A DNA stretch of 64,000 bases, taken from positions 62,001 to 126,000 of the forward strand of contig DASVBS010000022.1 of the NCBI GenBank assembly GCA_036375715.1. The letters run 5' to 3'. Both the position numbers and the translations under genes were made by a program. Shown here one piece after another: positions 4,626 to 6,150 of this stretch. The notes beneath the pieces were generated by a model. That model worked only from the letters and a program-made list of their open reading frames with translations, searched no databases and was not told where the DNA came from. The first letter of the stretch is position 1. Each line of letters starts with the position of its first letter. Source of the DNA: Longimicrobiaceae bacterium (GTDB taxonomy: Bacteria; Gemmatimonadota; Gemmatimonadetes; Longimicrobiales; Longimicrobiaceae).

Positions 4626-5228
4626 TCAATACTTGCGGATGACCGCTACCACGATACCCTGGATCTGCACCTCAGCCTCGTCGTAGTACATCGGCTGCAT
4701 CGTCGGATTGGCCGGCTGCAGTCGGATTCTTCCGCCAGGCTCGCGATAGAACTTCTTCACCGTGGCGGCATCGCCCCCGATCAGCGCCACCACCATCTCT
4801 CCGTTCTCCGCCGTCTGCCGGGAATTCACTACGATGTAGTCGCCGTCGCGGATCTGCTCGTCGATCATCGAGTTGCCCTGGACGCGGAGCACGAAGTTGT
4901 TGCCGCGCCGGAGCATGTCGTGAGGCACCGCGATCGTTTCCTGCTGCTCGACCGCTTCGATCGGAAACCCTGCCGCGACCAGCCCGAGCAGCGGGAGCTC
5001 CACCGCCAACGTCCCCTCCGCCGGCACCAGCTCCAGCGAGCGGCTCTTGTTGTAGTTCTTCCGCAAATAGCCTTTCTTCTCCAGATTACTGAGGTGCTCG
5101 TGCACCGTGGCCAGCGAGGAGTAACCGAAGGCGTTGGCAATCTCTTCGAAGCTCGGAGAGTAGCCGTACGTCTCGATGAAGCTTTCCACGTAGTCCAGGA
5201 TGTGCTTCTGTCGCTTGGTCAGGGCCAT
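4626..5228 (-). CDS. lexA: SOS repressor LexA
   Basis: Transcriptional repressor of the DNA-damage response that self-cleaves when RecA filaments form. The 200-residue protein has an N-terminal winged helix (LTKRQKHILDYVESFIE; recognition-helix region YSSLATVHEHLSNLE) and a C-terminal S24 domain. The cleavage site Ala86-Gly87, catalytic Ser120 (VQGNSMID) and Lys158 (TVKK) are all present. ATG 5228 matches the usual MxLTxRQ start, so longer upstream reading is rejected. A promoter with flanking TTCGG direct repeats lies upstream, consistent with autoregulation. A 55-aa ORF follows in the same transcript. Confidence 0.97.
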   Translation of the reverse strand: MALTKRQKHILDYVESFIETYGYSPSFEEIANAFGYSSLATVHEHLSNLEKKGYLRKNYNKSRSLELVPAEGTLAVELPLLGLVAAGFPIEAVEQQETIAVPHDMLRRGNNFVLRVQGNSMIDEQIRDGDYIVVNSRQTAENGEMVVALIGGDAATVKKFYREPGGRIRLQPANPTMQPMYYDEAEVQIQGIVVAVIRKY

Positions 5229-5262
5229 AGATCGCGCGCGGTCTGGGTGAGGTCCTGAAGAG

Positions 5263-5305
5263 CCGAATAGAGACCGAACCACAGTATACCCGAAACAACG
5301 CCGAA
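5263..5305 (-). promoter_or_regulatory. Candidate LexA operators: paired TTCGG-N6-TTCGG direct repeats
   Basis: Read on the minus strand there are four TTCGG words, at 5305-5301, 5294-5290, 5278-5274 and 5267-5263. They form two TTCGG-N6-TTCGG pairs with 11-nt period, one on each side of the TATACT -10 of lexA. Direct-repeat operators with an 11-nt period (GTTC-N7-GTTC) are known for alpha-proteobacterial LexA; assignment here is by position and analogy. Confidence 0.45.
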
Positions 5306-5311
5306 GGGCAA
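5283..5311 (-). promoter_or_regulatory. Promoter of lexA
   Basis: On the minus strand TTGCCC (5311-5306), 17 nt spacer, TATACT (5288-5283). It is flanked by the TTCGG repeats described separately. Confidence 0.65.
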
Positions 5312-5319
5312 GCAATTCG

Positions 5320-6150
5320 TTGAGTACCGTTCCGGCTTCGGCCGCCTCTCCCGATATCCTCTCGCGCATCGTCGACACCAAGCGGGCCGAAGTCGCGGCT
5401 CTGCGGCCGCATGCCGCCGAGCTGCGCGATCGTGCGCGGTGCGCGCCGCCGACCCGCGGCTTCGCGCGCGCACTGCGCCGGCCCGCGGAGGTGCGCCTGC
5501 TGGCGGAGATCAAGCGTCGCTCGCCCTCGGCCGGGCCCATTCGGCCGGGCTCGTCGCCCGATCAGGTCGCGACGGACTACCTCCGCGGCGGTGCCGCGGC
5601 GCTTTCGGTCTTGACGGACAGGGAGTACTTCGACGGCAGCCTCGAGGCGCTGCAGGCCGCCCGTGCGGCGGTGGACCTCCCCCTGCTGCGAAAGGATTTC
5701 ACCATCGACCCGGTGCAGGTCTACGAGGCGCGCGCCGCCGGTGCCGATGCCGTGCTGCTCATCGTCCGCATCCTCGAGGACGAGCAGCTGCGGGAGCTAC
5801 TCGGGTTGGCGGCCGATCTCGGGCTGGATAGCTTGGTCGAGGTGCACGACGCGGAAGAGATGGACCGCGCGCTGGCCGCCGGCGCGACGCTCCTGGGCGT
5901 CAACAACCGGGACCTGCGTACCTTTCGCACGGAGCTCGACCTCACGCTTCGTCTGGCTCCCCGGGTGCCCGCGCAGGTGACGCTGGTCGCGGAGAGCGGG
6001 ATCCGCACGCCCGACGACGTATGCGTTCTCGGAGCGGCTGGCGTCGACGCGATCCTGGTGGGCGAGTCGCTGATGCGGCAGCCCGACCTGGCCGCCGCTG
6101 CACGCGCCCTGACCGGGTTGCCGAAGAAACCGCGACGAGAGGAACGATGA
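5320..6150 (+). CDS. trpC: Indole-3-glycerol-phosphate synthase
   Basis: Closes CdRP to indole-3-glycerol phosphate. The 276-residue (beta/alpha)8 protein shows the family landmarks [39 protein letters not shown] and LVAESGIRT. The start used is TTG 5320, about 10 nt after AAGGG; no ATG fits better. It heads trpC-trpF-trpB-HEAT-HDGYP-trpA and is divergent from lexA, so the shared 90-nt region may also hold its promoter, which I could not define. Confidence 0.95.

Follow-up and report, generated by a model that had tools for sequence, protein, structure and literature searches.

A TTCGG direct repeat as the predicted LexA operator of the Gemmatimonadota

Described LexA operators and the lexA1 promoter

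LexA operators vary among bacterial groups, and direct repeats have been reported in the Alphaproteobacteria and the Balneolaeota (PMC8565304, PMC7739468, PMC3323433), with 17 LexA motifs reported by 2021 (PMC8565304). The E. coli LexA box is the palindrome CTGT-N8-ACAG (PMC3323433), the alphaproteobacterial box is GTTC-N7-GTTC (PMC8565304, PMC3323433), and the Balneolaeota motif TTACACATATTTTWTACATA was tested by gel shift, its regulon including a radical SAM protein and translesion polymerases as well as recA (PMC7739468). In the literature searched, which left most subscription papers outside, no description of a Gemmatimonadota LexA motif was found as judged by titles, and TTCGG is a half-site spelling that we did not find described for LexA direct repeats.

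The window, by which we mean the whole 64-kb stretch of DNA analysed, belongs to a Longimicrobiaceae genome of 4.37 Mb in 87 contigs. An earlier note on this DNA had described two TTCGG-N6-TTCGG pairs with an 11-nt period on either side of TATACT in a lexA promoter, and both the pairs and the gene are as described. CCGAA occurs on the plus strand at 5263, 5274, 5290 and 5301, which gives two minus-strand pairs with a period of 11 nt within each and a start-to-start distance of 27 nt (boxes A and B, Table 1). The product of the downstream gene, LexA1, is a LexA by its family score (Table 1), by its Ala86-Gly87 bond and by its Ser120-Lys158 pair, all of these residues being invariant among 18 aligned LexA1 proteins; the E. 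coli equivalents are Ala84-Gly85, Ser119 and Lys156 (PMC3091678). A scan of 5200-5420 detected a single sigma-70-like promoter, formed by the two hexamers listed in Table 1, with box A occupying the spacer and box B starting 4 nt beyond the -10 hexamer. The element thus overlaps the RNA polymerase sites of the lexA promoter, where a repressor would exclude the polymerase. The two pairs are also too regular for chance, as the note had held: they are the only exact copies in the window, against 0.22 copies expected from shuffled windows, at least two copies anywhere were seen in 2 of 100 shuffles, and the pairs are conserved in the order.

Among 56 lexA1 promoters of the host's order, 53 carry two exact boxes and three carry one, the distance from box A to box B ranging from 24 to 29 nt. 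The 11-nt period was built into the search pattern, and what shows it to be constant is the double match in nearly all promoters. Of 127 lexA1 promoters, 125 have TTG at most 6 nt ahead of the first box. The best-matching named LexA loci mostly carry Gemmatimonadetes or Gemmatimonadota labels; in this set of 80, which partly overlaps the order set through genomes present in both, 69 have two exact boxes, two have one and nine have none. The nine boxless loci are labelled Acidobacteria (eight) and Deltaproteobacteria (one), and two boxed loci are labelled Holophagales and Kuenenia, their LexA proteins grouping among those of the Gemmatimonadota in the tree.

The likeness to the alphaproteobacterial 11-nt repeat that the note had drawn is apt, since both elements are direct repeats of the form TTC-N8-TTC with an 11-nt period at SOS promoters. 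The half-site differs, however, being GTTC there and TTCGG here, with GG after the TTC. In box A the TTC mostly follows a C or a T, in box B the preceding base varies, and a G precedes the first TTC in 2/53 A boxes and 8/53 B boxes, which does not make a GTTC half-site; identity with the alphaproteobacterial box was dropped on this difference. The Balneolaeota motif is likewise a direct repeat from outside the Alphaproteobacteria, associated with recA, translesion and radical SAM genes, but its half-site is unrelated, and it was tested by gel shift whereas the element here is predicted from sequence. With the E. coli system the locus shares the repressor family, the cleavage residues and the overlap with the promoter, but the repeat is inverted there and direct here, and the half-site is another.

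The lexA1 gene is divergent from trpC, and the boxed intergenic region is common to both genes. Of the 120 lexA1 loci with sufficient flanking sequence, 104 have a divergent trpC match at most 500 nt away (the remaining 7 of the 127 had less than 500 nt upstream and were left out), and the trp genes might also be influenced by LexA.

Table 1. Positions of the features discussed; plain numbers refer to the window, and L numbers to loci gathered from this and other genomes
Feature	Position	Strand	Remarks
lexA1	4626..5228	-	200 aa, ATG at 5228, stop included; TIGR00498 207.8 bits, cut-off 110.95
Box B	5263..5278	-	TTCGGTCTCTATTCGG; shortly 3' of -10
-10 hexamer TATACT	5283..5288	-	between box A and box B
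Box A	5290..5305	-	TTCGGCGTTGTTTCGG; within -35/-10 spacer
-35 hexamer TTGCCC	5306..5311	-	17-nt spacer to TATACT
trpC	5320..6150		named by eye
lexA1 to trpC	4626..6150		includes the common boxed intergenic region
lexA2 (G000:C65)	L047:4039-4686		own Ala-Gly bond; neighbours resemble gltX and tadA (by eye); box absent
Box before gyrase/topoisomerase IV A gene (G000)	L014:1501-1516		gene by eye
Box before gyrase/topoisomerase IV A gene (G035)	L333:1207-1222		gene by Pfam
Two boxes before mraZ-like gene (G024)	L326:1554-1612		gene by eye
Three consecutive half-sites (G009)	L327:1528-1554		11-nt steps; upstream of DNA primase gene
Short LexA-domain protein (G009)	L339:896-1483		TTCGG box upstream
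Short LexA-domain protein (G006)	L299:1118-1450		TTCGG box upstream
Sister-box loci	L155, L178, L179, L184, L187, L189, L191, L194, L197		lexA promoters, acidobacterial except one that is deltaproteobacterial

The element before other SOS genes

The earlier note had proposed scanning the promoters of recA, uvrA, dnaE2/imuB and other SOS genes, and the outcome divides by gene. In the window's genome, recA has an upstream box one letter off (TTCGTAATTTGTTCGG), the imuA-imuB-dnaE2 operon has an exact box, and uvrA has a weak one (TGCGGTAAATTTTCGG, 14.0 bits). In relatives, recA, imuA and the PA0069 radical SAM gene carry the element in most of the loci examined and uvrA in a minority. The reading of the element as an SOS box is thereby supported, with LexA as its predicted binder, since the element recurs at recA and at translesion-synthesis genes.

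The counts in relatives come from a 19-nt matrix built from 109 lexA boxes alone and applied to 300 nt upstream of other genes. A site of at least 12 bits was found before recA in 22/30 loci (at least 8 bits in 27/30, the other three scoring below), before imuA in 18/19 (16 of 17 distinct genes, three of the 19 loci being one gene; 19/19 at 8 bits or more), before the radical SAM gene in 24/29 (24 also at the lower threshold) and before uvrA in 4/30 (11/30 at the lower threshold). For recA, the radical SAM gene and uvrA, the loci are the best-scoring 30 from 55, 48 and 61 genomes with matches, respectively; loci in which the gene start was uncovered were left out (4 of 23 for imuA and 1 of 30 for the radical SAM gene). 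As a control, 2400 random windows, taken from the loci of the radical SAM gene and of uvrA with any true promoters left in, gave 3.6% at 12 bits or more and 5.1% at 8 bits or more. In the recA boxes TTCGC or TTCGT is a frequent first half-site, and in several promoters the element is in the opposite orientation. With 4/30 loci at 12 bits, uvrA was dropped as a solid target across the order.

In the window's genome, an exact box also stands upstream of the PA0069 radical SAM gene (family score 484 bits, cut-off 360) and an exact site upstream of an SbcD-like gene. The DnaE2 of the imuA operon is firm (1062 bits, cut-off 939), and the naming of ImuA (38.6 bits, cut-off 150) and of ImuB (weak Y-family similarity) rests on operon position. 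PA0069 proteins resemble SplB. The splB photoproduct-lyase genes are reported to be under LexA control in two groups (PMC3323433).

A hidden Markov model was made from 49 boxes, including the two lexA boxes and the recA box of this genome. With 150 preselected candidates scored, it returned eight matches here at E up to 10, all weak (best E-value 0.048): three training members, namely the two lexA boxes and the recA box, and sites before imuA, the radical SAM gene and DprA-like, DinB-superfamily and esterase genes. The last three genes are candidates only. In two genomes, the window's own among them, a gyrase/topoisomerase IV A gene has a box a short distance upstream (Table 1).

Among the best 50 of the listed matches of the model in 41 genomes, with 150 preselected candidates scored per genome, 24 lie at most 300 nt upstream of imuA (nine), lexA (seven), the radical SAM gene (six), recA (one) or a gene encoding a LexA DNA-binding domain (one); the training set held lexA and recA boxes, and imuA and radical SAM boxes were absent from it. 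For the other 26, the ORFs were read and the telling ones family-scanned, and repair or replication genes were found downstream of 11: imuA (by eye, at a contig end), imuB-like (two), dnaE2-like (two), Rad52-like, primase, GIY-YIG nuclease, gyrase/topoisomerase IV A, SbcD-like and UDG-linked radical SAM (just below the cut-off). DinB-superfamily genes lie downstream of two of the best 50, and 13 of the 50 precede a gene without evident repair role or no clear gene. One match just under the best 50 has uvrB downstream (816 bits, cut-off 743).

In one relative, three consecutive TTCGG half-sites precede a DNA primase gene, and in another two boxes stand before an mraZ-like gene (Table 1), which if so named would be the head of a cell-division cluster, making an SOS link to division possible.

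The predicted switch and its probable binder

Because the TTCGG repeat also stands before other DNA-repair genes, in the host as well as in its relatives, it is very probably (we put it at roughly 0.93) the LexA operator, or SOS box, of the Gemmatimonadota and the switch site of their SOS response. In an undamaged cell LexA1 would sit on both boxes of its own promoter, on A in the -35/-10 spacer and on B over the start region, and would thus block RNA polymerase; elsewhere it would occupy one box each at targets such as recA, the PA0069 radical SAM gene and the imuA-imuB-dnaE2 operon. Upon DNA damage, RecA filaments would form and prompt LexA1 to cleave itself at Ala86-Gly87, turning the genes on. 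Each box would be bound by one dimer, its two half-sites head to tail. The element adds to the direct-repeat LexA operators, which are odd for a symmetric dimer. The analysis gives the Gemmatimonadota a concrete predicted operator and a predicted SOS gene set, by which damage-response genes may be recognised in the many uncultured genomes of the phylum.

The binder need not be LexA1. A second LexA (LexA2), 33% identical to LexA1, is encoded in the window's genome and in the majority of the order's 61 searched genomes, and at 184.5 bits against TIGR00498 it is a full LexA by family score, so that LexA2 might bind the boxes and control both the SOS genes and lexA1. We consider this improbable. 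The matrix found no site of at least 12 bits in 15 regions upstream of lexA2 and one of at least 8 bits (9.4 bits), and in eight genomes, three of them only 83-87% complete, lexA1 is boxed and a search for a second LexA gave nothing at E up to 0.001. Since these eight genomes carry the boxes without a second LexA match, LexA1 is the likely binder, and LexA2 was dropped in that role on both grounds.

The nine named loci without TTCGG have another box. Eight carry TTCGC-N6-TTTG and the ninth, L197, TTCGC-N6-TTCGC (by eye), and these sister boxes are placed between -35-like and -10-like hexamers (also read by eye). Their LexA proteins have Lys in the recognition helix where Gemmatimonadota LexA has Glu44, which aligns with Glu45 of the chain that we take to be the E. 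coli LexA protein. The E. coli residue is among the DNA-contacting residues listed in PMC3091678. A TTCGG box occurs at least once with each of the 126 Glu proteins and with none of the nine Lys proteins; one further protein of the 136 (L042, two boxes) was unreadable by the residue pattern used, and SLATVHEH, one of two search words by which the public loci were gathered, favours Glu. The match between residue and box is a lead and suggestive only, because in the tree of 56 rows a single Glu/Lys change suffices. The LexA of the acidobacterial loci stands near that of the Gemmatimonadota. The LexA box of another acidobacterium, Acidobacterium capsulatum, was reportedly described by Mazon et al. 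in 2006, its lexA gene coming from the Alphaproteobacteria according to the title, whereas the acidobacterial loci here have a Gemmatimonadota-near LexA and mostly TTCGC-N6-TTTG. Tentatively, and with the odds somewhat against it, a direct-repeat LexA system with an 11-nt period, built on TTC-N8-TTC or something near it, may be old and common to the Gemmatimonadota and part of the Acidobacteriota, with one recognition-helix residue setting the half-site, Glu giving TTCGG and Lys giving TTCGC or TTTG. If true, a repressor noted for its changing operators would follow a simple code in which residues can be swapped. Together, TTCGG and the acidobacterial sister boxes make a natural pair on which the way LexA changes its site could be tested.

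That the boxes are bound by some DNA-damage regulator other than a LexA is less likely still. Such a reading draws on the fact that LexA1 binding is deduced from the DNA and protein sequences; no candidate of this kind emerged in the analyses made, however, all 56 lexA1 promoters carry the box, and a box at its own gene is the usual look of LexA autoregulation. The box also differs where the LexA recognition helix differs. Least likely of all are chance repeats in a GC-rich genome, for although the exact pattern matches the genome 16 times and the reversed control 11 times, some 7 of the pattern's 16 matches falling within long ORFs (read by eye), chance was dropped on the conservation at lexA and on the return of the element before recA, imuA and the radical SAM gene. 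On the same counts the bare pattern was dropped as a regulon finder: by itself it is unspecific genome-wide, and what stands above chance is the doubled copy in a single promoter and its conservation.

Besides the full-length LexA proteins, two relatives encode short proteins that have a LexA DNA-binding domain without a peptidase-domain match (Table 1). In one of these genomes (G009) no full lexA1 match was found. Both proteins are possibly non-cleavable regulators of the same regulon.
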